From: Flavobacteriaceae bacterium
GTDB taxonomy: Bacteria > Bacteroidota > Bacteroidia > Flavobacteriales > Flavobacteriaceae
Assembly (NCBI GenBank): GCA_009921505.1
Contig: RFXU01000004.1
Location: 1-32,008 of the forward strand
Direction of reading: 5' to 3'
DNA: 32,008 nucleotides
In this document: positions 3,135-32,008 of the stretch, piece by piece
How positions within the stretch are numbered: the first letter of the stretch is position 1
Layout of the letters: each line of letters opens with the position of its first letter
Made by a program: the position numbers and the translations under genes
The notes under the pieces: generated by a model
What the model was told of the DNA's origin: nothing
Database searches by the model: none
What the model saw: only the letters and a program-made list of their open reading frames with translations

Positions 3135-3329
3135 CTAGATTTCCTCTTGATCACGCAAATGCTGAATGTATTGTGCTTTCTGAACTTGAGCACGTCTTTT
3201 CACAGAAGGCTTGGTAAATTGCTGTCTTGAACGCAATTGACGCATCGTCCCTGTCTTGTCAAACTTACGCTTGAAACGCTTTAGGGCTCTGTCGATATTT
3301 TCTCCGTCTTTTACTGGTATAATTAACAT
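3135..3329 (-). CDS. rpsU: 30S ribosomal protein bS21
   Basis: 64 aa MLIIPVKDGENIDRALKRFKRKFDKTGTMRQLRSRQQFTKPSVKRRAQVQKAQYIQHLRDQEEI; classic S21. Confidence 0.97.
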   Translation of the reverse strand: MLIIPVKDGENIDRALKRFKRKFDKTGTMRQLRSRQQFTKPSVKRRAQVQKAQYIQHLRDQEEI

Positions 3330-3335
3330 AGTGTC

Positions 3336-3345
3336 ATCACCTCCT
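3336..3345 (-). promoter_or_regulatory. Strong Shine-Dalgarno sequence of rpsU
   Basis: Minus strand AGGAGGTGAT, complementary to the canonical 16S 3' end (AUCACCUCCU), with the GGAGG core about 10 nt before the rpsU ATG. Confidence 0.85.
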
Positions 3346-3358
3346 CTCTTTAGGACGG

Positions 3359-3366
3359 CAAATATA
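3359..3366 (-). promoter_or_regulatory. Putative -7 box upstream of rpsU
   Basis: TATATTTG on minus strand (TAnnTTTG); no clear TTG -33 seen. Confidence 0.4.
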
Positions 3367-3404
3367 AAATTTTTCTATAAAATAAAAATGTCTTTTCGTC
3401 GAAA

Positions 3405-13226: not shown

Positions 13227-13737
13227 GTTGGCGCATTTTATTCTTAAACAAGGTCTCAGACCAATCCTTTTTTATTTGATCTAGTGCTAACGCGATTGAA
13301 TCCCTTTTTTCAATCAATTTTTGACCGGACTGTGTTTTAAAAAATTGATCCACTGCTTTTTGATCTTTAGCACTTAAGTCTTGCTGCATCGCATATTTCT
13401 GACCGGCATCGCTGGCATAAAAAGTACTCATAGCGGCCACATCTTCTCGATTTAAAAACTGACGATAAGCAAACGCCCCTTGAGTGACATATTCCTTTAC
13501 TTGTTCCGCTTCATCTTGTCGGAGCTCTTGCCAAACCTCAGGCTCAATTTGTTTATTGGCAAAATTCCGCTGAAGCTTTGGAAATACATCGTGAAAGCTA
13601 ACACTTGCCGTAACCTCATCTCCTTTCAACGCCATCATATCCATAATTTCAAGATGAAAATCGTCCGTTTGACCCCATAGAACCCCTTGGGTAATACAAA
13701 ATACCGTTAAAATAAAAGCGCGCATTTTTCTAATCAT
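13198..13737 (-). CDS. DUF2059 family exported protein
   Basis: Signal peptide MIRKMRAFILTVFCITQGVLWG; EDVAAMSTFYASDAGQKYAMQQ...FFKTQSGQKLIEK. Confidence 0.75.
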   Translation of the reverse strand: MIRKMRAFILTVFCITQGVLWGQTDDFHLEIMDMMALKGDEVTASVSFHDVFPKLQRNFANKQIEPEVWQELRQDEAEQVKEYVTQGAFAYRQFLNREDVAAMSTFYASDAGQKYAMQQDLSAKDQKAVDQFFKTQSGQKLIEKRDSIALALDQIKKDWSETLFKNKMRQLIKGGHLKN

Positions 13738-14557
13738 GACAATTAAACTAAGTTTGCCTAAGTTACCAAAAAAACAATCAATGCGCTATTTCGGGTCATT
13801 TTCCCTATTCATATTTCTTGCTGTACTGATCCACAGTTGCAGCAGTGACGAATCCAATACACCAAACGACCCAAACATTGAAAACAATCGTCCGCTAGGC
13901 ACTTCTGCAGCGGATATCCTCGGGCCAAATGAATACGGCTCGTTGACCATAGAATTGGTGTACACGAATTCTTTTCGTCCTGAACCCTCAAGTATTCTTG
14001 GGTTTAAGAACTTTGTATTGGGCCTAGCCAACAAACCGGAAGGCGTACAATTTATTGAACGCGTAATTCCGAATCAGCCTGGAGCACCTTTTTCCATCGA
14101 AGAGATTAGAGCGATTGAAGAGGCCAATCGTACGGTCTACACAGAAGGGAACAACCTTGGAGTGTATGTATTTTTCTCCAATGGCGCTTCTGAAAATGAC
14201 ACAAACAACTCCGTGACTTTGGGCACAGCCTATCGAAATACATCGATAGTGATCTATCAAAAAACGTTGGAGTTTATCACCCAAACAGATCCGGAAGTTC
14301 TACCAATCTTGGAACAAACAACCCTGAATCACGAGATGGGTCATCTTATGGGGCTCGTCAATATTCAGAACGACGATATTCATCAAGTCCACGAAGACCC
14401 CAATAGTGAAAAACACTGTTTACATGAAGATTGTTTAATGTATTACGATGCCACAAATGTCGGGCGTCAAATGTTAAACCGATGGACTCAATTGCGCGCC
14501 GTACCGCAACTCGAAGTCCAGTGTTTACAGGACTTACAAGCCAAAGGGGCTCTATAA
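13736..14557 (+). CDS. Lipoprotein zinc metalloprotease (metzincin/archaemetzincin-like; flavobacterial 'membrane metalloprotease')
   Basis: Lipoprotein signal FIFLAVLIHSCSSDE; LNHEMGHLMGLVN and KHCLHEDCLMYYD; possible alternative start ATG 13781. Confidence 0.8.
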   Translation: MTIKLSLPKLPKKQSMRYFGSFSLFIFLAVLIHSCSSDESNTPNDPNIENNRPLGTSAADILGPNEYGSLTIELVYTNSFRPEPSSILGFKNFVLGLANKPEGVQFIERVIPNQPGAPFSIEEIRAIEEANRTVYTEGNNLGVYVFFSNGASENDTNNSVTLGTAYRNTSIVIYQKTLEFITQTDPEVLPILEQTTLNHEMGHLMGLVNIQNDDIHQVHEDPNSEKHCLHEDCLMYYDATNVGRQMLNRWTQLRAVPQLEVQCLQDLQAKGAL

Positions 14558-16331: not shown

Positions 16332-18083
16332 TTAAAAGGCATTAAAATTATATTGGAGCCCAAGATTAACGCGTACGCCCTGTATCGGATAATTGGCCCA
16401 TAGGCCGTTACTTTGATTCAAAAGGTTAATCCCTGAAATCGTGGCGCTGAAATTTTTTGTGAGCGCGTAATTTAAATGTAATTGGGTATCAATAAAGCCT
16501 TCGACCGTTTCTGCAGAAATTTGATCAGCCCACATGAACTGTTCTTTTCTTGGGCCATAACCTAATAATTTGGCGGTAAGTAATAACTGCTGGTTCACGT
16601 GAAAAGTCCCAGAACCGCCAAAGCTGAATCCTGGAATATTCCAAGGCTCTGAATTATTTTCAGGACGGTTATCAATCATTGCGGCATCTAAGGCAATATC
16701 CCATTGCTGTGACAGTCGTCCATTAATTTTTGCGGTAATTTTTAATTCATTTCCACGGTCATAATTCACAGCAAAACTATTGCCATTATCATAAGCAAAA
16801 GAACTTTGTTCACCAGACCATGGTCGACTGATAAAATAAGCCTGATTTTCAAAATTTCGGAATTCAGCATCGAGGTTGTACTGCCACAAGTCAGTTATCG
16901 CTCCATTAATTCCAAAACGAATAATCTGTTTGTCAATTTGCGGCTGCAGTCCCGCACCCGGAGCGAGAAAAGCTTGGATATTGACCAAAGAATTTGTCTC
17001 GTATTGTTTGTACTGGCCACTGAAACTCAAACTGGCTTCAAGACTTCGTCCCAATAAAGGGTAATTTAATTCGATCTTTGGAAAAAGCCGCAAAGTATTG
17101 TTGCTTGTTCCATTGTGTCCCCAACCTTTAGCGCCCACATTGACCATCAAATCGCCAAAATCCAATTCTGTCTGGACCCCCAATTCAGCGTTGAGCGCAT
17201 TGTAATCTTGAGTGGTAATTTGGGGATCATCAAAACTGAACCTCGTGCTCAAATAGGAAATATTCCCCGAAAACGATATAATTCGCTTAGCCCAAATTAA
17301 TTCCGCGTTTGAGGATGACGCAACACTCCATTCATTGACCCCATAACGATCGGAAAAAAATGAGAGCTCACTATCAAGGCCAGTAAACCAGCCCCCATTA
17401 GAACCTAACCGATGACGCAAAGCTGCCTTCTGATACGTTTGTCCATAGTCATTATTCAATGATTGATCCAGGCTCAAGGTATCCGGAACCCCATACCATT
17501 GCACGGCCGAACGATTTAACGATAGTGTCAGGGTTGACGGGCGATCTTGTAACTCGGTCCGCCATTGAGCCCTCAAACCACTTTTAGCCCAATCCGTAGG
17601 TAAAGTGACGCCCTTAATTGCTCCATTGAGTTGTTGATGGTCAAAAGCAAGGTTCAAATAGGACGCACGACTGAATTCCCGATTTACAAAACCTTCTAAT
17701 CCAGCTGAGGAGCGCGTACCCAGCCAAGCCCGCAAATAATTGGGCAACGGTCTGGGTGTAATTTCTTTTTCAGGCCCCTGAGCGCGCAATACAGCAGGTA
17801 ACTCAGAAGGACTTAAATCAAAATTTTCATGAATATAGGCAAACTCTTGTCTGGATTCCTGTACTGCTTCTCTCGCCAAGTCCCATTTGGTTTTCGGGCG
17901 TAAATTAATTGAGGGCGTATAGGATTTAACCACATCAACGACCTCTGTAGCAACGCCTGTGCTGTCTGCAGTGTTCTGTGCCTGGACTTCGCCGCTTACA
18001 AGTGCAAACAAAATAAGGGTTAAGGTCAATTTTTGTCTGCGCACAATTCCTTGAATAATTTGATCTGTCAGCGCCTTAATCAT
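16332..18083 (-). CDS. Outer-membrane beta-barrel protein (TonB-dependent-receptor-like barrel)
   Basis: Probable start ATG 18083; signal peptide ...LTLTLILFALVSGEVQAQ; alternating beta-strand pattern; ends in aromatic C-terminus (LGLQYNFNAF). Confidence 0.8.
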   Translation of the reverse strand: MIKALTDQIIQGIVRRQKLTLTLILFALVSGEVQAQNTADSTGVATEVVDVVKSYTPSINLRPKTKWDLAREAVQESRQEFAYIHENFDLSPSELPAVLRAQGPEKEITPRPLPNYLRAWLGTRSSAGLEGFVNREFSRASYLNLAFDHQQLNGAIKGVTLPTDWAKSGLRAQWRTELQDRPSTLTLSLNRSAVQWYGVPDTLSLDQSLNNDYGQTYQKAALRHRLGSNGGWFTGLDSELSFFSDRYGVNEWSVASSSNAELIWAKRIISFSGNISYLSTRFSFDDPQITTQDYNALNAELGVQTELDFGDLMVNVGAKGWGHNGTSNNTLRLFPKIELNYPLLGRSLEASLSFSGQYKQYETNSLVNIQAFLAPGAGLQPQIDKQIIRFGINGAITDLWQYNLDAEFRNFENQAYFISRPWSGEQSSFAYDNGNSFAVNYDRGNELKITAKINGRLSQQWDIALDAAMIDNRPENNSEPWNIPGFSFGGSGTFHVNQQLLLTAKLLGYGPRKEQFMWADQISAETVEGFIDTQLHLNYALTKNFSATISGINLLNQSNGLWANYPIQGVRVNLGLQYNFNAF

Positions 18084-20952
18084 TTTGTTCTTTTTGATTA
18101 TTATCCTTTGGATCATTTGACGAAGGCTCTTTGGTGCTATCCATTTCTGAGGCCCCTGCACTATTTTCAGGTTCCTGAGCGTTTTTTGATTCATCCATTT
18201 TTTCCAAGCGCTCCGCAGCCTCTTGCTGTAGCTCTGGAAAGTCCTGCATATTGTCCCGAATATTTTCTAAAATAAATCGCGCCTGAAATGGATCGGATAA
18301 GGCTTCAAAATTCTTGGCCATAAGCATCAATCCACGAGCACCATATACCATATAATTCGCATAATTCTGAGCCAGATTTTGAATCTGTTCATTGGACCTT
18401 GAATAGTCTTGATCCAAATGAGCAAAATAGGCCTGGGCAAAATTCAATTGAGCCCCATATTGCCCTTTTGCAAAATCGTCCATATCCTTGTATTGCTCAC
18501 GAGCCAAATCAAATTCTTTTAATTCAAAATAACTCCACGCACTGATCAGCCGCGCCTGAGTAAGTAATGGGTCTTGGGTGTTATTGGACAAATGCGTGGT
18601 TAGATCATTCGTATAATGTATGGCCTGTTGCCACCGCGATTGATCACTCATCATTTGCATTAAATTACTCAAGGCAAATGTGCGCTGATCCGCATCTAAG
18701 GGTTGAGTCAAAAGTTTGATCAGTGACAATTCCGCCTCGGCAAATTCTTGATTTGAAAGATAATGGCGGGAGACGCGAATTAAAGTGGGAATAATAAAAG
18801 ATGGATTTTCATCAGCGGCGATCACAAAATCGGCATGTAAAAGTGCTTTTGTAACCTCTTGTTGGCGCCAATAAATCTCTGATAAAATATAATGTGCCTC
18901 CAAGGCATATCGTCCTTGGGTATAATTTTCCAAATACGCTTCAAATCGTTCAACAGACAAGGCATCATTTTGCGCAGCATATGCTTGTTTAGCGGACTCA
19001 AATGAAGCCTGATCCAGTGCGGCCTGATCAATTGAAATAAAATCGAGTTCATCGACCCATGCCCCATATTCCTGAACGCGCCCCAGAGAAATAAAGGTAT
19101 TTCTCGCAGACTGCACCGCAGAGATTGCCTCCTGCGTTCCAGGATATAAATTCACCACAGACTTAAAATAATTTAAAGCCGGTTCAAATTCACTATTGTT
19201 ATCCGCAATTAACCCAAGGTTTAAGTAAGCTGAAGCCACCAGCGGACTATTTTTTTGTTCTGAAATGAGCTGAGTGTACTGGGCTTTAGCCTCTGCAATT
19301 TTATCCAAACTGACATAAGCACTGCCCAAACTTAAATACACCCGATCACGATAAACTGAATTGGGATAAGTCTTTAAAAATTTGACTAATCGCTCGGTCT
19401 TTGCCTCTAACCCTTGAGTGAAGGAAAGGCACATCGCGGCCTGAAAATCAGCGTAATCCTCGTTTACCCCTCCATTATCAAGAACCCTATTATACTGGGC
19501 TAAAGCTTGCTTATAATCCTTTGACGCAAAATAACAATCGGCCAGATTAAGCCGCGCTTCATTTTCCTTGGCAATGGGCTTGGGTTGTTTGAGATAATTT
19601 AAAAAGCCCTCTTGAGCACGAGAATAATTTTTTAATGCCATGTATGCAAAGGCCTGTTCATAATGGAAAATAGACCATTCAGGAGCTTTTTTAAACGCCT
19701 GAGAATCCATTAATTTATCGAACGTTGAAAGGGCACTTTCAAAGGCACCGGACTCCCCAAAAATGACGCCAGACCAGAACATGGCTTGACCGCCAATCAA
19801 AGAATTGGATTTAATTTTTTGGGCTAGTTGAAATGAGTTTTGCGCGGCTAAAGAAAGACCTTGATCGTACTGTTGACGACCTTTCAAAAAATACGCCCGC
19901 TGCAAAGCACTTTGACGTTCATCACCCATTACTTTGTCCGATAAAAGTGAAGGGGCGCTGAGATAGGCAATAACCTGATCGTAATCCTCACTCTCTAACA
20001 GTGTACTCAGCCACCATTGCTCTACTTCACCGCGCTTAGGGTCCTGAGGATATCTGTTTATAAAAGACTCAAGAACATCTGGAACAGAAGTATAACTCAA
20101 TCTTAAGTCATAAGTGAGCTTTGCATATTGGTAATACGCCTTGGGGGTAAATGGTCGCTCATCTGGGGTTTCACAGGCCTTTTTATAAGCATTTAACGCC
20201 TCCGTTTTTTGATCAAGAGCGAGATAAGCCCCGGCCAAGACATAAGCCACATCTTGAGCGAGTAGCCCCTCGGCTTGAACATTGGACAAGACGGCGATAG
20301 CCTTTTCATTCTGTCCAAGGGTTGAATAGGCTTGCCCCAAATAAAACTGATTTTCAAGGTGTTCCTCACTCTGTTTTTGTCGCGATGGTTTATCCACCGC
20401 CTCTTCCAGGTAATTTACTGCAATGGCATGGGCGCCCATTTGTGCATATGCGCGACCCACAATCCCATTTAAAGAACCTTGATTGATATTTCTTTTGTCT
20501 CCAGAAATCTGGATTGCGTCCAAAGCGCGAATCCCCCATGCGGCAGCTTGTTCGAAATTACTGGTGCGAAACGAAAGGTCAGCCATCAGCCCCCAAACTT
20601 CGAGCTCGTCTCGCTGCTCAAGGGCAATTCGATCCAATTTTTCCAGGGCCTGTTGCCATTTTTTATTCTGGTAATCAATATAAGCACTGTAATACAGTGC
20701 TCTGGAACCATAATTAGGACTACTTTCTAATGGCCCAAAAAAACGTTTTGCTTCTGAGAAATTACCGAGTTTGAAATGAGCATAAGCGATTTCAAATTCA
20801 TGTTGATCTGTAAGCGCCTGAAAACCCTCAGCCTCTTTATACCAGGCAAGTGCATTAGCATACTGGCCTTTAGTAAAATAATAATGACCCACGGTGGTAT
20901 AGGCACGCTTGACTTCTGGTGCGCTAGGATATTCCCGAACAAATCGTTTCAT
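18076..20952 (-). CDS. Large tetratricopeptide-repeat protein, apparently lacking N-terminal region
   Basis: 958 aa with many TPR units (e.g. EARLNLADCYFASKDYKQALAQYNRVLDNG; ASAYLNLGLIADNNSEFEPALNYFKSVVNLYPG); begins directly inside a TPR repeat with no signal peptide. Confidence 0.85.
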   Translation of the reverse strand: MKRFVREYPSAPEVKRAYTTVGHYYFTKGQYANALAWYKEAEGFQALTDQHEFEIAYAHFKLGNFSEAKRFFGPLESSPNYGSRALYYSAYIDYQNKKWQQALEKLDRIALEQRDELEVWGLMADLSFRTSNFEQAAAWGIRALDAIQISGDKRNINQGSLNGIVGRAYAQMGAHAIAVNYLEEAVDKPSRQKQSEEHLENQFYLGQAYSTLGQNEKAIAVLSNVQAEGLLAQDVAYVLAGAYLALDQKTEALNAYKKACETPDERPFTPKAYYQYAKLTYDLRLSYTSVPDVLESFINRYPQDPKRGEVEQWWLSTLLESEDYDQVIAYLSAPSLLSDKVMGDERQSALQRAYFLKGRQQYDQGLSLAAQNSFQLAQKIKSNSLIGGQAMFWSGVIFGESGAFESALSTFDKLMDSQAFKKAPEWSIFHYEQAFAYMALKNYSRAQEGFLNYLKQPKPIAKENEARLNLADCYFASKDYKQALAQYNRVLDNGGVNEDYADFQAAMCLSFTQGLEAKTERLVKFLKTYPNSVYRDRVYLSLGSAYVSLDKIAEAKAQYTQLISEQKNSPLVASAYLNLGLIADNNSEFEPALNYFKSVVNLYPGTQEAISAVQSARNTFISLGRVQEYGAWVDELDFISIDQAALDQASFESAKQAYAAQNDALSVERFEAYLENYTQGRYALEAHYILSEIYWRQQEVTKALLHADFVIAADENPSFIIPTLIRVSRHYLSNQEFAEAELSLIKLLTQPLDADQRTFALSNLMQMMSDQSRWQQAIHYTNDLTTHLSNNTQDPLLTQARLISAWSYFELKEFDLAREQYKDMDDFAKGQYGAQLNFAQAYFAHLDQDYSRSNEQIQNLAQNYANYMVYGARGLMLMAKNFEALSDPFQARFILENIRDNMQDFPELQQEAAERLEKMDESKNAQEPENSAGASEMDSTKEPSSNDPKDNNQKEQND

Positions 20953-20982
20953 GGCTCCATTGGCTCAGTAATCCTCAGTTTT

Positions 20983-23589: not shown

Positions 23590-23657
23590 AATCGAATGTA
23601 ATAAAAAGTCGTGTCAGTACATGACGAAAATCGTAAATTAGCCATGATTACGCCAAG

Positions 23658-24533
23658 ATGCTTTCGATACTGATCCCCACTTTTAATGATGATATCACGC
23701 CACTAGTTGAGCGACTATGGTACGAAATTGAGCGCATAGAAACGCCCATTGAAATCATTATTGGAGATGATCATTCCACCCGTGAAGCTTCATTAAACAC
23801 ATTTCAGAATCTAGATTCTGTCGTGTTTTTTAGAAATCCTGAAAATCTTGGACGTACCGCGACGCGTGATCTTTTGGCAAAAAAAGCAAGGTATAATACG
23901 CTCCTTTTTTTGGACGCTGATGTCCTGCCCGCTCAAAGTGATTTCATTAAGAAATATTTGTCAGCCATAGGGAAATCCCAAGTTGTCTTTGGTGGAGTGC
24001 AGTACACAAAAGAAAAGCCGGAACAAGCCATGCTTCTGCGTTGGGTTTATGGAAAAGAAAGAGAGGCGAAATTAGCACAAGAAAGACAGCGTAACCCCTA
24101 TTACATCATTTCTCAAAATTTAATGATTGACAAGGATGTATTTTTGGCCGTCAATGCCCCTGAAATTAAACGTTACGGCTGGGATAATGTGTTTTCCTTT
24201 CAATTGTATCGCCAGGGTATAACGGTACATCATATCGACAATGCCGTAATTCACCTGGGTCTGGAGCCTTGTGACAGTTACCTTAGCAAAGTCCAGCAAG
24301 CGATGTCTACTTTAGTTTGGGCGGAGAAAAATGATATGATCTCAGAGAACTTTACCAGTATTCAAAAATTTTACAATTCACTGAAAACTTTTGGACTTGC
24401 TGGCCTTCTCAGAATAAGTTTAACCCTTTGGTTGCCCATTATGCGCGCACAACTGGCCTCAAAATTCCCCAGTGTTCGTGTATTAGACCTTTATAAGTTT
24501 TATTACTTTTCGACATACAAATACAAAGCATAA
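23658..24533 (+). CDS. Family 2 glycosyltransferase
   Basis: MLSILIPTFNDDITPLVERL...EIIIGDDHST...NPENLGRTATRDLLAKKARYNTLLFLDADVLP. Confidence 0.92.
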   Translation: MLSILIPTFNDDITPLVERLWYEIERIETPIEIIIGDDHSTREASLNTFQNLDSVVFFRNPENLGRTATRDLLAKKARYNTLLFLDADVLPAQSDFIKKYLSAIGKSQVVFGGVQYTKEKPEQAMLLRWVYGKEREAKLAQERQRNPYYIISQNLMIDKDVFLAVNAPEIKRYGWDNVFSFQLYRQGITVHHIDNAVIHLGLEPCDSYLSKVQQAMSTLVWAEKNDMISENFTSIQKFYNSLKTFGLAGLLRISLTLWLPIMRAQLASKFPSVRVLDLYKFYYFSTYKYKA

Positions 24534-25483
24534 TGGCGCAATTCACTGTAGTGATCCCCTTATATAACAAGGCTGCCGAAATTCGGGCCACCTTAAACTC
24601 AGTCTTTGCGCAAACATTTTCTGATTATAAAGTCATCGTCATTGACGATGGTTCTACAGATCATAGCGTCAAAATTGTCGAAGAATTTACAGATACAAGA
24701 CTTCGATTGATTCGCCAAGAAAATCAAGGGGTCGGACCTGCCAGAAATAAGGGTGTTAGCGAGGCCGAATCCCCCTTCATTGCCTTTCTCGATGCAGATG
24801 ATTATTGGTATCCCGAGCATCTGGAACACCTCAATGAGCTGATCGATCGTTTTCCGCAAGCCCAGTGGATGGCCACAGCCTATGAAAAAGCCTTTACCGC
24901 AAAACTCATTAAACCTGTAGACACGCCTTTGCGTTCATTTGAGCAAGGGTGGCAAGGTGAAGTCCCAGACTATTTTGCCATGGCAAAAAAGGACGCTCCT
25001 GCTTGGACCTCTGCCATGTGTTTTTCAAAGGATTTTTTTCAAAAGCTCGGGGGTTTTGATCCATCCATAACGATGGGGGCCGGAGAGGATACAGATTTGT
25101 GGATTCGGGCGGCGCTAACCCAGCCCATGTATTGGATTAACTCTATTAGTGCGCAACATCTGCAGTTTAGCAGCAATCGGGTTTCACATGCGCCCACCCT
25201 AAAACGCCATTTTATCGATTTAGATCAATATGAACATCTCGCTAAAAATCACAAATCCCTAAAAATATACTTAGACTTAAATCGCTATTCAATTGGCCTG
25301 AAGTATCAAATGGCTGGAGACCCATCACGAGCAAAAACCTATTTTAACGCTTTGGACCAATCATCGCTCAACGCCCTGCAGCGCATACTCATAAGACTTC
25401 CTGGAGGAGTTTTGCGTTTTGGACTTTCGACCCAAAGATTTCTTGCGGGTTTTGGTTTAAGATTATCGGCCTTTGGCCGTTAA
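24533..25483 (+). CDS. Family 2 glycosyltransferase
   Basis: FTVVIPLYNKAAEIRATLNSVFAQTFSDYKVIVIDDGSTDHS...FIAFLDADDYWYPEHL; coupled to previous gene by TAATG. Confidence 0.95.
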   Translation: MAQFTVVIPLYNKAAEIRATLNSVFAQTFSDYKVIVIDDGSTDHSVKIVEEFTDTRLRLIRQENQGVGPARNKGVSEAESPFIAFLDADDYWYPEHLEHLNELIDRFPQAQWMATAYEKAFTAKLIKPVDTPLRSFEQGWQGEVPDYFAMAKKDAPAWTSAMCFSKDFFQKLGGFDPSITMGAGEDTDLWIRAALTQPMYWINSISAQHLQFSSNRVSHAPTLKRHFIDLDQYEHLAKNHKSLKIYLDLNRYSIGLKYQMAGDPSRAKTYFNALDQSSLNALQRILIRLPGGVLRFGLSTQRFLAGFGLRLSAFGR

Positions 25484-25870
25484 AAAATCGTTGTATTCTC
25501 GAATGTAGTCTGCCTCTTCGAAGCGACCAGAGGAAAGGACCAAACATACCGCCCCGGATGAAAAATCATCTAACGAGCGCCAAATTCCTGTTGGGATGAG
25601 TAAGCCTTGGTTGGGTTTGTTGAGCACCACTCTTGTTTGATTGGCTCCATCATCCAAAAGCACTGAAAAACTTCCGCTTAACGCAATTAGGCATTCGAGT
25701 TGCTCTTTATGCGCATGTCCCCCCCGCGCTGCATCAGAGGGCACGTCATAAAGATAGTACACCCGCTCTATGCGATACGGCAAAACATCGCCCTCGATAA
25801 CCGACAGATTACCTCGAGGGTCGTGAATTTTTGGGATTTGAATAATCTTTAAGTCTTCAATCGTGGTCAT
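25463..25870 (-). CDS. FdtA/QdtA-like cupin (dTDP-4-keto-6-deoxyglucose 3,4-ketoisomerase family)
   Basis: IPKIHDPRGNLSVIEGDVLPYRIERVYYLYDVPSDAARGGHAHKEQLECLIALSGSFSVLLDDG; probable start ATG 25870. Confidence 0.88.
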   Translation of the reverse strand: MTTIEDLKIIQIPKIHDPRGNLSVIEGDVLPYRIERVYYLYDVPSDAARGGHAHKEQLECLIALSGSFSVLLDDGANQTRVVLNKPNQGLLIPTGIWRSLDDFSSGAVCLVLSSGRFEEADYIREYNDFLTAKGR

Positions 25871-27029
25871 AAGTTTGCTCAATCAATTCTTTCCATTGTT
25901 GGGATACTTTATCGGCACTATACCCCGCTACCGAGGACTTTGTCTTTGACTTAATCCCTATATAAAACGACTCATCCAGACACAAGGTATCTATAGCCTT
26001 ACCAAAAATACGACTATTTCGCTCACGCACCAGCAGACCGTTAACCCCATCGTGAATCAATTCATCAGGCCCTGATAAAATATCCAATGAAATAACAGGT
26101 GTTCCTAAAGACAAGGCCTCGAGTAAAGCCATGGGGAACCCCTCATAGTGACTCGTCAAACAAACACATCGGGCCCCTTGGATTAAACCTTGAGGATTTG
26201 GATCAAACGAAAGAAATTCCACAGAGGACTCTACCCTCAAATCCTTAGCTCGGTTTTGAAGTGCCAAGGCGTCTGGTCCAGAACCTAAAATAATCAGTTT
26301 ATAACCCTGCTTCTTGGCGGCGCTATGGGCAAAAGCCTCAAGCAATAGCCGAACATCTTTGACGGATTCATCAAGGCGACCGAACCAAAGAAGATATGGT
26401 GCCGTTATCTGGGATTCCGTTTTAGTCTGAGCATGCGATTGATCAGCCTGAGCTAGCCATTGAGCCGAGATAAAATTTGGGATATAATTACGGTGTTTCA
26501 GGCCGTATTTTGGCATTAAATCTTGGGTTATATATCGGGACACTCCAACATGCTGAGAATATTTTGCTGTAATGATTCCAAACCTGTGAGGATTGTCCGT
26601 GAGATAAATCGGCGCATGGGCACTGTGGCAAACATAAATCACGTGCGTTGTTCCGTAAATGAGTTTTCGATAAACCCATTCTTTGAATACACTGGTTCTC
26701 GAGCGATGATCGACAACCACGTCAGGGCGATTCACCTTGATATAGCGATACAATCGCCATAGGCGCTGCCAGGATTGTGTCGCTCTCGTAGGGACGTTAT
26801 TTAATTTTGAATCGACTTTATTTTGGACGTTTTGAACAGGATTTCTACCACCCAAATGCAATAATTCACCACTGTAGACGTAATCTATTGGATCGCGAAG
26901 AATGGCTACAGTGACCCTGTAGCCCAGGGCGGTAAACATCTGGCTATGTGCGGCGACAACGCGCTGTGCACCACCAGTACCGAGCGAGATGGCGACCAGG
27001 CAAACATGAATATTTTTAACTTCGCTCAA
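25857..27029 (-). CDS. Family 4 (GT-B) glycosyltransferase
   Basis: LVAISLGTGGAQRVVAAHSQMFTALGYRVTV ... LLWFGRLDESVKDVRLLLEAFAHS ... HYEGFPMALLEALSLGTPVISLDILSGPDELIHDGVNGLLV. Confidence 0.93.
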   Translation of the reverse strand: MSEVKNIHVCLVAISLGTGGAQRVVAAHSQMFTALGYRVTVAILRDPIDYVYSGELLHLGGRNPVQNVQNKVDSKLNNVPTRATQSWQRLWRLYRYIKVNRPDVVVDHRSRTSVFKEWVYRKLIYGTTHVIYVCHSAHAPIYLTDNPHRFGIITAKYSQHVGVSRYITQDLMPKYGLKHRNYIPNFISAQWLAQADQSHAQTKTESQITAPYLLWFGRLDESVKDVRLLLEAFAHSAAKKQGYKLIILGSGPDALALQNRAKDLRVESSVEFLSFDPNPQGLIQGARCVCLTSHYEGFPMALLEALSLGTPVISLDILSGPDELIHDGVNGLLVRERNSRIFGKAIDTLCLDESFYIGIKSKTKSSVAGYSADKVSQQWKELIEQTYDHD

Positions 27030-27060
27030 ATAGGCTAACTTAGTGGTCTCTCACAAAGAT

Positions 27061-28216
27061 ATGAAGATACTTTTAGTAGGCGAATACAGTAGATTGCACA
27101 ATTCCCTCAAAGAAGGTCTGCCATCAAGTTATACTGATGGGAGACGGCGATTATTTTAAAAATTATCCCGTCGATATTAAACTCAATCGCCGATTTCAAA
27201 AAGGAGTTTTGAAGCGATTCAAGAACTTAATTTTCCGCTTGAGCGGTTTTGATATTTCTTCATGGCTCATGCTGCGCTCTGCTCTGCGCCATAAACAGGC
27301 GTTACAGGGGCATGATATCGTTCAACTCATTAATGAGAGTCCCCTGGGCATTATGCCCAAACACGAGCTAAAACTCATACAATGGCTCGTCGCGCACAAC
27401 GACAAATTGTTTGTTATGGCCTGCGGAACCGATTATGTCAGTGTTAAATTTGCCATGGACAAAAACTTTCGCTACTCCATTTTAGAACCGCTATTTCAAG
27501 GGAAAGTCAGTAAGAAAGATTACGCAGCAATTCTGAAATACCTCAGCCCAGGGCATTTAGCCCTGCACAAGTCGGTTTTCGAGTTGTGTCATGGATATAT
27601 CGCAAGCGATTTGGATTATGCCTTGCCCTACCGTGGATTAAGTAAGTATTTGGGCCTGATTCCCAATCCGATCAATGTGGAGGATATAAAATTTATCCCT
27701 CAACTAGAAGATACAAGGCCCATCATATTTCACGGGGTGAATACAAAAAATTATTACAAAAAGGGTAGTGATTATTTTGATCAAGCCCTAGAAATTGTAA
27801 CCCAAGAACGACCCAATTCCTGCACAATCATTCGCACCCAAGACTTGCCCTACCACGAGTATAGGGCGAAGCTCACCCAAAGTGACATCGTACTCGATCA
27901 AGTCTTAGGGTATGACCAGGGTTATAATGCGCTCGAGGCTATGGCCCAAGGAAAAGTACTATTGACCTGCGCCGAAAAAGAATGGCGCGAACATTATAAT
28001 ATTCCCGAGCATTGTGTCGCTCTAAATGCACTACCTGACGCACAAAAAATCGCAAACCTGATCATAGAACTTATCGATCATCCGGCTCAAAGAGTTGTAT
28101 TAGGGGAACAAGCGCGAACCTTTGTAGTGGAGCATCACGATTATAAAAAGGTCAGCCAGAAGTACCTCGAACTTTGGTCAACAGGGCGCGACGCGGCGTC
28201 AACCTCTGGAACTTAA
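27061..28216 (+). pseudogene. GT-B glycosyltransferase with frameshift near the N-terminus (frame change at about 27120)
   Basis: Frame from 27061 reads MKILLVGEYSRLHNSLKEGL then runs out of frame to a stop at 27157-27159; the next frame reads HQVILMGDGDYFKNYPVDIKLNRRF from 27122. The two halves fit a single GT N-terminus. Confidence 0.65.
27137..28216 (+). CDS. Remaining intact ORF of the glycosyltransferase (would start at MGDGDYF if expressed)
   Basis: 359 aa ORF; GT-B C-terminal features QSDIVLDQVLGYDQGYNALEAMAQGKVLLTCAE. Confidence 0.7.
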   Translation: MGDGDYFKNYPVDIKLNRRFQKGVLKRFKNLIFRLSGFDISSWLMLRSALRHKQALQGHDIVQLINESPLGIMPKHELKLIQWLVAHNDKLFVMACGTDYVSVKFAMDKNFRYSILEPLFQGKVSKKDYAAILKYLSPGHLALHKSVFELCHGYIASDLDYALPYRGLSKYLGLIPNPINVEDIKFIPQLEDTRPIIFHGVNTKNYYKKGSDYFDQALEIVTQERPNSCTIIRTQDLPYHEYRAKLTQSDIVLDQVLGYDQGYNALEAMAQGKVLLTCAEKEWREHYNIPEHCVALNALPDAQKIANLIIELIDHPAQRVVLGEQARTFVVEHHDYKKVSQKYLELWSTGRDAASTSGT

Positions 28217-28956
28217 AATAGCTTAAGATATTTGTCGAGCATAGACTGTTCGCCGGTCCAATCGCGGTCAATATCTTCGCGCAGTAACTTTACAGGAATT
28301 CCTCCAACCAAAATGTTTTCTCCCAAGGCGGTAATATCTTTGGTACAAAGGCTGTTCGAGGCGACAGTGCAGTGATTGGGGGTTTTGGCCCCTTGGAGAA
28401 ACGTAACCCGGTTACTCACAAAATTATAAGCTCCAATACTGATCGGACCGCGCATAGGCAGCGGCGTATTGGTACTGACGGTGCGCATAGCGTGAAAGTT
28501 AGTGTCGATCACTTGGGCTTCAGATCCTAAGCGGGCGTAGTCTCCAAAACTAATGGATTGATGACAAATAACTTTACTGTTAGAAGCCACACTGGACATA
28601 TGGCCCATGGTTAAGATTCCTTCTGGACCTAGATGCAGCAGATAATCCAAACCAAATTGCACATACCCCTTAAAAATGAGCTGGCCCTCAATATGTATTT
28701 GAGCAATACCGCGGGCCTGGGTGACCAATTCATAAGGTTGTCCAAATCCAACCATGCCCATGTGGATTTCCTCCGGCAAAATAATGCGCCCTTTTAGTTT
28801 TCCAAAATGCACCCTTCCGTAAAACAAAACAGGGAGTTTGCGCGCTGTTGAAAATGAAAAGTACTTGAAGTTAAAGTATAAAGACTTACACCAGTTGATT
28901 TTTCGAAACAACCGACAACGCTCTTTTAACTTCCGGTACAAGGGTCTAATGCTCAT
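28213..28956 (-). CDS. Hexapeptide-repeat acyltransferase (WbbJ/maltose O-acetyltransferase-like)
   Basis: Left-handed beta-helix repeat pattern; ...ISIGAYNFVSNRVTFLQGAKTPNHCTVASNSLCTKDITALGENILVGGIPVKLLRE. Confidence 0.82.
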   Translation of the reverse strand: MSIRPLYRKLKERCRLFRKINWCKSLYFNFKYFSFSTARKLPVLFYGRVHFGKLKGRIILPEEIHMGMVGFGQPYELVTQARGIAQIHIEGQLIFKGYVQFGLDYLLHLGPEGILTMGHMSSVASNSKVICHQSISFGDYARLGSEAQVIDTNFHAMRTVSTNTPLPMRGPISIGAYNFVSNRVTFLQGAKTPNHCTVASNSLCTKDITALGENILVGGIPVKLLREDIDRDWTGEQSMLDKYLKLF

Positions 28957-30433
28957 CGGAATCTTGGTCTTTTTTACTGCGCAGTATTTGAACTAAATCA
29001 ATGCGTTGATTTAATCGATACAACGAAAATAGGCAAGTTATCGCAATTAGAATAGCGGTTAAGGCAATTTGCAGCACCGTTCCTGAGAGGCTACTGAGCA
29101 CAAAAACCAAAATACAAAGGATTAAACCTAAGAAAAACATGGCGTAAAGAGTCCTAGGAAGCCTCAACGCATAACGCCAGCGAACAATCAAGATGAGACT
29201 CAAAAAATGAATGATATAGTAGCCAAAAAAACTCAGACCCAAACCTAAAAGCCCCCAATAATAATAACCCAAAGCATTTAAGGTAAATAAGATGAGGTTA
29301 AAACTCAAGGTTGTCCTTAAAAACAATTTTGAATCGCCACGCGCAATAATGACATAGCCCAAAGAAAAGGACACGGCTTTAAAAAGCATTCCTAATATTC
29401 CCCAACGCACAAGAGGCACGACCGCCTCAAATTCTGGTGTATAGAGCAAGGTGATGATCCAAGGGGCTAAAGCCAAAAAAATCACGATAATCGGAAGCAT
29501 GAGGAGTGTCGCCATTTCGGCTTGATTACCGACGATCATCTTGGTTTTATCCAAGTCCTCCCCCACAGAGGACAAACGAGGGAAATAATCGGTTCCCATG
29601 GCCGTAAATATCAGCCCGACATAAGTGTTTAGAATTAAAAACCCGGCGTTGTATAGACCTACCTGTTCTAGTCCACCTATTCCCGAAATAAATAATTGCA
29701 TCCCATAACCCACCAGTAGGGTCACGATAGAACTCACGCTGAGCATAAGCCCTAAGCGCACCATTGCGGTTCCCTCCTGCCACGCCTTCAGTGGTGCAGT
29801 AAAAACTGTCGTCTGCTTATTCCGCGCATCGACGAACTGCGCCACGGCGAAGCTGATCAAGGCAGAAAGTACAATCGCAGGAACGATGGCATCAATCCGA
29901 AAATAATAGTAAAGGGGGATCGTCACCAAAAGGGCTAAAAAATTACCCCAAACGTTGGCTTTGGCCAAGCCCTTTAGCATGCGCAAGCCCTGTAATCGGG
30001 TCAATGTAGATTGGGTGAGTTGCTTGAATAGCAAGGCTAAAGAAAGTGCCCGTATATGGGTGGCATAGTGATTGTCCCCGAAGGTCACAACGCTAATCCA
30101 AGGAGCCGTGATTAAAAGCAGTAATACCCCAATAATCGCCGTTATAAGAAAAAGTGTTTTTAAAACACTGAGTATATTTTTTTGGTCCTTGTCCCCAAGA
30201 CTCTCGTGGGCCGCAATTTCTTTTACCCCACTTCGATCCAAACCCAAGTTTGTAATGGCTAAGACCACATTGAGTGTGGCCATAAGTAAACTCGCGATAC
30301 CCATCCCCGCGGGCCCTATGAATAAAGCGATGAACTTAGAGCGCAAAAGTGCCATCAAAATATTGGCCACCTGAACCCCACCAAAAAGGGTCGTGGCCTT
30401 GAGCATACTTTGATAAGACTTTTTTGAATCCAT
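28946..30433 (-). CDS. Polysaccharide flippase, Wzx family (O-antigen translocase-like)
   Basis: 495 aa, about 12 TM segments, MLKATTLFGGVQVANILMALLRSKFIALFIGPAGMGIASLL. Confidence 0.88.
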   Translation of the reverse strand: MDSKKSYQSMLKATTLFGGVQVANILMALLRSKFIALFIGPAGMGIASLLMATLNVVLAITNLGLDRSGVKEIAAHESLGDKDQKNILSVLKTLFLITAIIGVLLLLITAPWISVVTFGDNHYATHIRALSLALLFKQLTQSTLTRLQGLRMLKGLAKANVWGNFLALLVTIPLYYYFRIDAIVPAIVLSALISFAVAQFVDARNKQTTVFTAPLKAWQEGTAMVRLGLMLSVSSIVTLLVGYGMQLFISGIGGLEQVGLYNAGFLILNTYVGLIFTAMGTDYFPRLSSVGEDLDKTKMIVGNQAEMATLLMLPIIVIFLALAPWIITLLYTPEFEAVVPLVRWGILGMLFKAVSFSLGYVIIARGDSKLFLRTTLSFNLILFTLNALGYYYWGLLGLGLSFFGYYIIHFLSLILIVRWRYALRLPRTLYAMFFLGLILCILVFVLSSLSGTVLQIALTAILIAITCLFSLYRLNQRIDLVQILRSKKDQDSDEH

Positions 30434-30443
30434 TGAATTAAGG

Positions 30444-31742
30444 CTAAACGCGTTCTGAGTTATGTTGTTCTTGCTTACGCACGTATTGCCAAACTAAAAC
30501 AAAGACCACGACCAAATACACAAAATACCGAATGAGATGACCGATAACCACCCCCTCAACTCCATATATATCAATAAAATAATGGGCAAATAAGTAGAAT
30601 AAACCTACCGATAAGATTTCTGTAAACACAAAGTGGTACACTAATTTTTTGGCAATAAAATAATAGGAAACGACCATAGAAATCAGACGAACAAAATCCC
30701 CTAACAATTGCCATTGAAACAAGGAAGACATGGCATCAAACCCCGGAAAAATCAGCGCGATAATAAAGTCTCTAAATAAATAAACCCCGATCATTCCTAA
30801 GCCAAAAATGGGCAGTATCGTTTTGTACACATGGCCCATTTCTCGCACAAAAGAACGCCGGCCGACCACAAGGGCAAACTTCGGGATCACGTACATGGTA
30901 AACAAGATGGTCGAAAACGCCATATAATTCTTAGACAAATCCAGCATTGCGGACCAGATCCCTGCATCACTTTCAGAAATCCGCCTTAAAATCATATTTC
31001 GAATTTCAATCTCAACGGTGCTCAAAATAACCGTTGAGAAAAATGACATTAACGAAAATGCGAGAAAATACTTGGCCAAAGGGGCTTTAAAATAGAGGTC
31101 TTTGAACTTGAGGTACTGAGTCAATACTTTGGTAAAAACCCACAATAAAGTCCCTAATTGAATGGCGGGTGTAATCGCTATAGCAATTAAAACACCGTCA
31201 AAATTATCGGCGTACAAAAAGCCAATAATAAGAGCCGAGCTAAGTAAATAACTCAACAAATCTATTTTGGCAAATTTCTTATACTGCGAGAGTCCGTTGA
31301 TCACTCCATTAAAAACCCTTTGAAGACTTATCGTGGGAACTAAAAGTGCGATGAGTTGAATGAGATAAGCATATCGATCGCTGCCGAACAAATAAGTGCT
31401 CAGCGAATCGTGCCACAAAAGCAAAACCACCGAACTGATGACGCTTCCCAGGACCGTAAAAACAAATGTCGTAGAAAAAAGGGCCGCCAATTGCTTTTCA
31501 TCCTCTTTAAACTCAGAAATGTATTTCACAATTCCGTTAAAAATCCCCAAAGAGGTAAACGAGGTCAATAACTGAATTAAACTCCGCAACTGTCCTTGCA
31601 AGAAAATACCAGACTCCCCAAAATTTTCAGCAATAACCCGACGAATGAACAGTGAAATAAATTGACGCGCCAAAATCACTGGCGCATTAAGCGATGTCAT
31701 TTTAAGGAGGGTATTGCCCTTTATGAAGTCGATGATTTTCAA
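30444..31742 (-). CDS. Second polysaccharide flippase, WzxE-like
   Basis: 432 aa polytopic protein; SLNAPVILARQFISLFIRRVIAENFGESGIFLQGQLRSLIQLLTSFTSLGIFNGIVKYISEF. Confidence 0.85.
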   Translation of the reverse strand: MKIIDFIKGNTLLKMTSLNAPVILARQFISLFIRRVIAENFGESGIFLQGQLRSLIQLLTSFTSLGIFNGIVKYISEFKEDEKQLAALFSTTFVFTVLGSVISSVVLLLWHDSLSTYLFGSDRYAYLIQLIALLVPTISLQRVFNGVINGLSQYKKFAKIDLLSYLLSSALIIGFLYADNFDGVLIAIAITPAIQLGTLLWVFTKVLTQYLKFKDLYFKAPLAKYFLAFSLMSFFSTVILSTVEIEIRNMILRRISESDAGIWSAMLDLSKNYMAFSTILFTMYVIPKFALVVGRRSFVREMGHVYKTILPIFGLGMIGVYLFRDFIIALIFPGFDAMSSLFQWQLLGDFVRLISMVVSYYFIAKKLVYHFVFTEILSVGLFYLFAHYFIDIYGVEGVVIGHLIRYFVYLVVVFVLVWQYVRKQEQHNSERV

Positions 31743-32008
31743 GGCGTAAAAGAATTTAGGCCTGCAATTACTTGATCCACTTGTTCATTTGTTAGAACGG
31801 GACTCATGGGAATACTCAAGACCGTATCGTGCAGCTGTTCAGATATTGGATGTCGCTCTATACCCAGTTCGGATAAGCCTTCTTGTTTATGCGGTGGCAC
31901 AGGATAATGGATCAAGGTCCCGATACCAAGTTGCTTTAAATGGCTTTCTAATTTGGTACGATTCTCGGTCCGCACAACATATAAATGGTAGACATGATCC
32001 CCATCATA
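31739..32008 (-). CDS. DegT/DnrJ/EryC1/StrS (FdtB/QdtB-like) sugar aminotransferase, C-terminal part (runs off right edge)
   Basis: Open frame to the edge: YDGDHVYHLYVVRTENRTKLESHLKQLGIGTLIHYPVPPHKQEGLSELG...LSIPMSPVLTNEQVDQVIAGLNSF; overlaps downstream flippase start in ATGA. Confidence 0.88.
   Translation of the reverse strand, partial: YDGDHVYHLYVVRTENRTKLESHLKQLGIGTLIHYPVPPHKQEGLSELGIERHPISEQLHDTVLSIPMSPVLTNEQVDQVIAGLNSFTP

Follow-up and report, generated by a model that had tools for sequence, protein, structure and literature searches.

The stretch of DNA analysed here, referred to as the window, is 32,008 nucleotides long and is one contig (C224) of a fragmented genome of a marine flavobacterium, assembled from environmental DNA, whose nearest relatives are metagenome-assembled Flavobacteriaceae. 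The assembly (G000) comprises 480 contigs and is 81.6% complete and 4.73% contaminated. Positions 23658–32008 of the window form a surface polysaccharide locus, with two GT2 genes, an FdtA/WxcM-like isomerase, a GT4 gene, an acetyltransferase-like protein and two Wzx-type flippase genes. Two divergently transcribed glycosyltransferase genes are found here. One, a GT4 gene, lies on the minus strand (25857–27029) and has a conserved TTG start at 27029. It is separated by a 31-bp spacer from the ATG at 27061 that opens the glycosyltransferase gene on the plus strand.

The plus-strand gene is split between two reading frames. Frame 1, which opens at ATG 27061, reads MKILLVGEYSRLHNSLKEGL and then PSSYTDGRRRLF before the stop at 27157–27159. 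Its product is 32 residues long: 20 true residues, the last in-frame base being 27119–27120, followed by 12 out-of-frame residues. This remnant (27061–27159) begins at the same ATG that homologues use. Frame 2, which is closed upstream, reads HQVILMGDGDYFKNYPVDIKL onwards and has no stop until 28216; past the break, this +1 frame is HQVILMGDGDYF. Its first ATG, at 27137, gives 359 codons (27137–28216, plus strand) that are 91% identical to residues 30–385 of an intact homologue and include Pfam PF13524 in the C-terminal half. Frame 1 matches the most conserved stretch of the family over 20 residues and frame 2 matches at 91% over 356 residues, which excludes chance resemblance. The frame split near the N-terminus that an earlier, sequence-only reading had described is thereby confirmed. 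A second intact copy was not found in the window's genome, which has one copy only.

The size of the defect was established by comparison with relatives. Whole-window alignments with four congeners (G005, G007, G002 and G001) each place exactly 11 missing nucleotides at the junction, 27119/27120. A pattern search across the junction in eight genomes of the genus found one copy per genome; the matched segment measures 53 nt in seven of them and 42 nt in that of the window. These results bear out the inferred loss of about 11 nt and rule out a one-base error. The gene is present in all seven other genomes of the genus, at 52–91% identity, and all seven, together with every complete copy read from the same family, are intact at the junction. 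The 20 complete homologues taken from genus and family are 378–390 aa long and all start at the same MKILL/MRILL. A natural start at MGDGDYF, which had been named beforehand as grounds for abandoning the split gene, occurs in none of the 20 aligned, and a late start is ruled out by their upstream ATG. The junction sequence was also searched for in viral contigs, with no match.

Structural modelling identifies the intact protein (378–390 aa) as a GT4-type enzyme with the GT-B fold. The AlphaFold2 model of an intact homologue (L025, supplied with 19 relatives; pLDDT 89, pTM 0.86) has two Rossmann-like domains, and the top PDB matches identified by Foldseek are the GT-B enzymes BshA, MshA and PimA. 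This agrees with the GT-B fold and N-terminal beta-alpha-beta unit that had been recognized from the sequence. The N-terminal elements in the model are a strand at residues 2–6, a helix at 11–22 and a second strand at 26–31. The donor-binding C-terminal domain scores above the cut-off of PF13524 and has a conserved acidic motif, with a near-invariant YDQGYNALEAMA stretch among homologues.

The window copy lacks a complete N-terminal domain, that is, strand 1 and the loop that follows it, as the frame is broken after residue 20. Twelve of the first 20 residues are invariant in the 20 divergent homologues: M1, I3, L4, L5, G7, E8, S10, H13, N14, L16, K17 and G19. The 359-codon frame begins at residue 30 of the intact homologue, and residues 1–29 supply strand 1, helix 1 and most of strand 2. 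A protein translated from this frame is, on the model, very probably inactive because these elements are absent. It could be argued that translation starts at ATG 27137, either as internal initiation or as re-initiation following termination at 27159, and that the resulting truncated 359-aa protein retains a function. The frame is open and under purifying selection, and ATG 27137 lies approximately 20 nt before the short-frame stop, a geometry that permits re-initiation. However, this position is not the start of any of the 20 homologues aligned, and the missing part contains the 12 invariant residues, so that a working protein from an internal start, one of the possibilities raised earlier, is very unlikely.

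The gene does not appear to have decayed. Along the branch leading to the window, 29 synonymous changes and 10 non-synonymous ones were counted, compared with 20 and 8 on the sister branch; a raised dN/dS, the sign of relaxed selection, is not seen on the window branch, and the window gene has no lesion other than the junction. As there is neither relaxation nor a further lesion, these sequence comparisons leave two readings, a very young break or a spurious one. The earlier suggestion of a recent event, if the event is real, therefore stands. Such an event would be a null allele, in which the frame is lost after codon 20 through an 11-nt deletion and the glycosyltransferase no longer works in this strain or a subpopulation, and we give this somewhat less than even weight. 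It would account for the clean, unique sequence with all relatives intact, as well as for the unrelaxed selection that a young event predicts, and the predicted loss of beta-1, alpha-1 and the 12 invariant residues would abolish activity. In addition, phage pressure often leads to the loss of glycan genes. If the allele is real, one sugar of the surface polysaccharide would not be added. Against a real deletion, there is no direct repeat at the junction.

Clonal or phase variation of the surface glycan, also raised from the sequence, is a different matter. Here, the break would be one state of a switch, and the position of the gene in a polysaccharide locus would fit. However, neither a short tandem repeat nor a convincing invertible repeat was found around the junction, and none of the eight genomes in the genus has more than one allele. 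With no repeat and no second allele, a phase-variable switch is exceedingly improbable.

The junction lies at the edge of an ultra-conserved block of DNA, positions 27000–27119, which takes in the spacer and the 5' ends of the two divergently transcribed glycosyltransferase genes. Where the window is covered by four relatives, no other 100-nt stretch is as conserved as this one: 98% of its positions are invariant, while the mean is 56%. In 30-nt windows compared with the five closest congeners, identity is 97–100% in the block and approximately 60–87% right after it. At codons 2–20, five species use the same codon at 15 of 19 positions, compared with 13 of 84 further on (P = 2e-7). Two sister species are letter-identical to the window over 119–120 nt. 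In the compared loci, the longest exact matches cover window positions 27000–27119 for G002 (120 nt) and 27001–27119 for G001 (119 nt), and both end at the gap. The next best exact match to G002 is 51 nt, whereas a further match of 119 nt to G001 lies at 3256–3374 of the window. The block is also found in two other genera, at approximately 87–88% identity.

The block is real, as judged from these alignments, and probably contains overlapping divergent promoters. At 27054–27061 on the minus strand, TATCTTTG matches TAnnTTTG, the consensus of the Bacteroidetes promoter box (PMC5682007), and would point to the minus-strand gene; this motif turns up approximately 0.6 times per kb on each strand of the window, which makes TATCTTTG weak evidence. 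A sigma-70 promoter scan returned one weak site, not above shuffles. The block has no Rfam match to a structured RNA and folds no better than shuffled sequence except in one homologue (z of −2.55 in L008 and +1.04 in the window). A pairing is predicted between the 5' spacer and the Gly-His-Gln-Val codons after the junction (L003 1380–1500; L008 1377–1497). One change per side in L008/L009 keeps this pairing, which is weakly supported and may be due to chance.

Ranking next in conservation within the window are 23592–23693 and 13693–13810. These blocks are also starts of divergent gene pairs, and conserved divergent promoters consequently look like a general feature of the genus at the sequence level. 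Such blocks would lend themselves to studies of how divergent genes with little space between them share regulatory DNA. A more specific proposal is that 27000–27119 acts as a dual regulatory element, its divergent promoters lying within the opening codons of the two glycosyltransferase genes and fixed at the DNA level in three genera or more. The deletion at its edge would then be real, silencing one glycosyltransferase and sparing the promoter of its neighbour. We consider this combination unlikely.

The block also bears on whether the deletion occurred in the organism at all. An assembly artefact is expected at a repeat or at a segment shared across species, and the exact match of 119–120 nt ends at the junction. 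As any exact match necessarily ends at the gap, only the length of the match and the divergence of the relatives from each other, which begins within approximately 2 nt of 27119, carry weight. Against an artefact, exact matches of more than 100 nt occur at other gene starts without error (13693–13810, 23592–23693 and 3256–3374).

An artefact is further expected to come with broken frames in indispensable genes. In this assembly, gyrA is present once and has a 4-nt tandem duplication near codon 70 (L125 3959–3968, on contig C10), which splits it into two frames covering model positions 1–64 and 62–799. This break is almost certainly an assembly error: a cell in which the sole copy of an essential gene is split would not be expected to survive, and in at least one case, therefore, a frame break in this assembly is almost certainly spurious. 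Contigs of G005 likewise end in this region of gyrA, a sign that assemblies of this genus may branch there. A second junction is found in the window itself, 6 kb from the glycosyltransferase junction. At 20959/20960, approximately 355 bp that are present in G005, G007, G002 and G001 are missing. The lost segment comprises a divergent promoter region, the signal peptide and the first approximately 95 residues of a TPR protein gene (18076–20952, minus strand), which is left without its native start and is otherwise intact in frame.

Over approximately 100 kb compared between the window's genome and its nearest relative, G005, there are only three coding frame breaks, all on the side of the window's genome. 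These are the 11-nt junction, the gap of approximately 355 bp and the gyrA duplication. Suspected coding indels at four other loci (L126, L130, L121 and L114) turned out to be intergenic. Both rpoB and ileS are uninterrupted in this assembly; its error rate is therefore not extreme, which counts against an artefact. Short runs of N were not found in the loci of this genome, which neither proves nor excludes trimming of scaffold N runs as the cause of the gaps.

Taken together, the gyrA frameshift, the second large deletion in the same contig and the position of the break at the exit of the cross-species shared block favour an artefact; all three weigh against the null allele, and the frameshift should be lethal. 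We therefore regard it as moderately probable that the 11-nt gap is an error of metagenome assembly and not a mutation of the organism, and such an error is more likely than a real null allele. The contig passes through the block that is letter-identical in sister species. If such species co-occurred in the sample, the assembly graph would merge inside the block and branch at its end, as is expected where a shared segment exceeds many assembly word lengths. The sequence would then have been rejoined, 11 nt too short, exactly at the end of the block. The native gene would encode a full-length, working GT-B glycosyltransferase of approximately 388 aa in the surface polysaccharide locus.

The features of this locus can be compared with three known systems. 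The intact protein resembles GT-B enzymes of the GT4 type (BshA, MshA, PimA and PglA) in its C-terminal PF13524 domain, and its predicted structure matches BshA (3mbo), MshA (3c4q) and PimA (2gej) with Foldseek E-values of approximately 1e-11 to 1e-12 and a probability of 1.00. It differs from them in being only 10–14% identical and in an N-terminal half without a Pfam match, and the in-frame part of the window copy begins only after residue 29. Like divergent bacterial promoters with TAnnTTTG (PMC5682007), the block has a short spacer (31 bp), a box, TATCTTTG, directed toward the minus-strand gene and strong conservation of the DNA. Unlike them, its conservation reaches 20 codons into the plus-strand gene and there is no clear upstream (−33) box.

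As a lesion of a gene, the glycosyltransferase break is ordinary. It serves as a warning that frame breaks in genomes assembled from environmental DNA can coincide with stretches that are letter-identical across sister species, in this case a probable conserved divergent promoter, and can be mistaken for pseudogenes or clonal variation. As in the frameshift and fragmented-gene artefacts known from metagenome-assembled genomes, the frame is broken in an otherwise intact, selected gene, and the same assembly contains other frame breaks, one of them in an essential gene. The usual artefact of this kind involves one base, whereas 11 nt are lost here.
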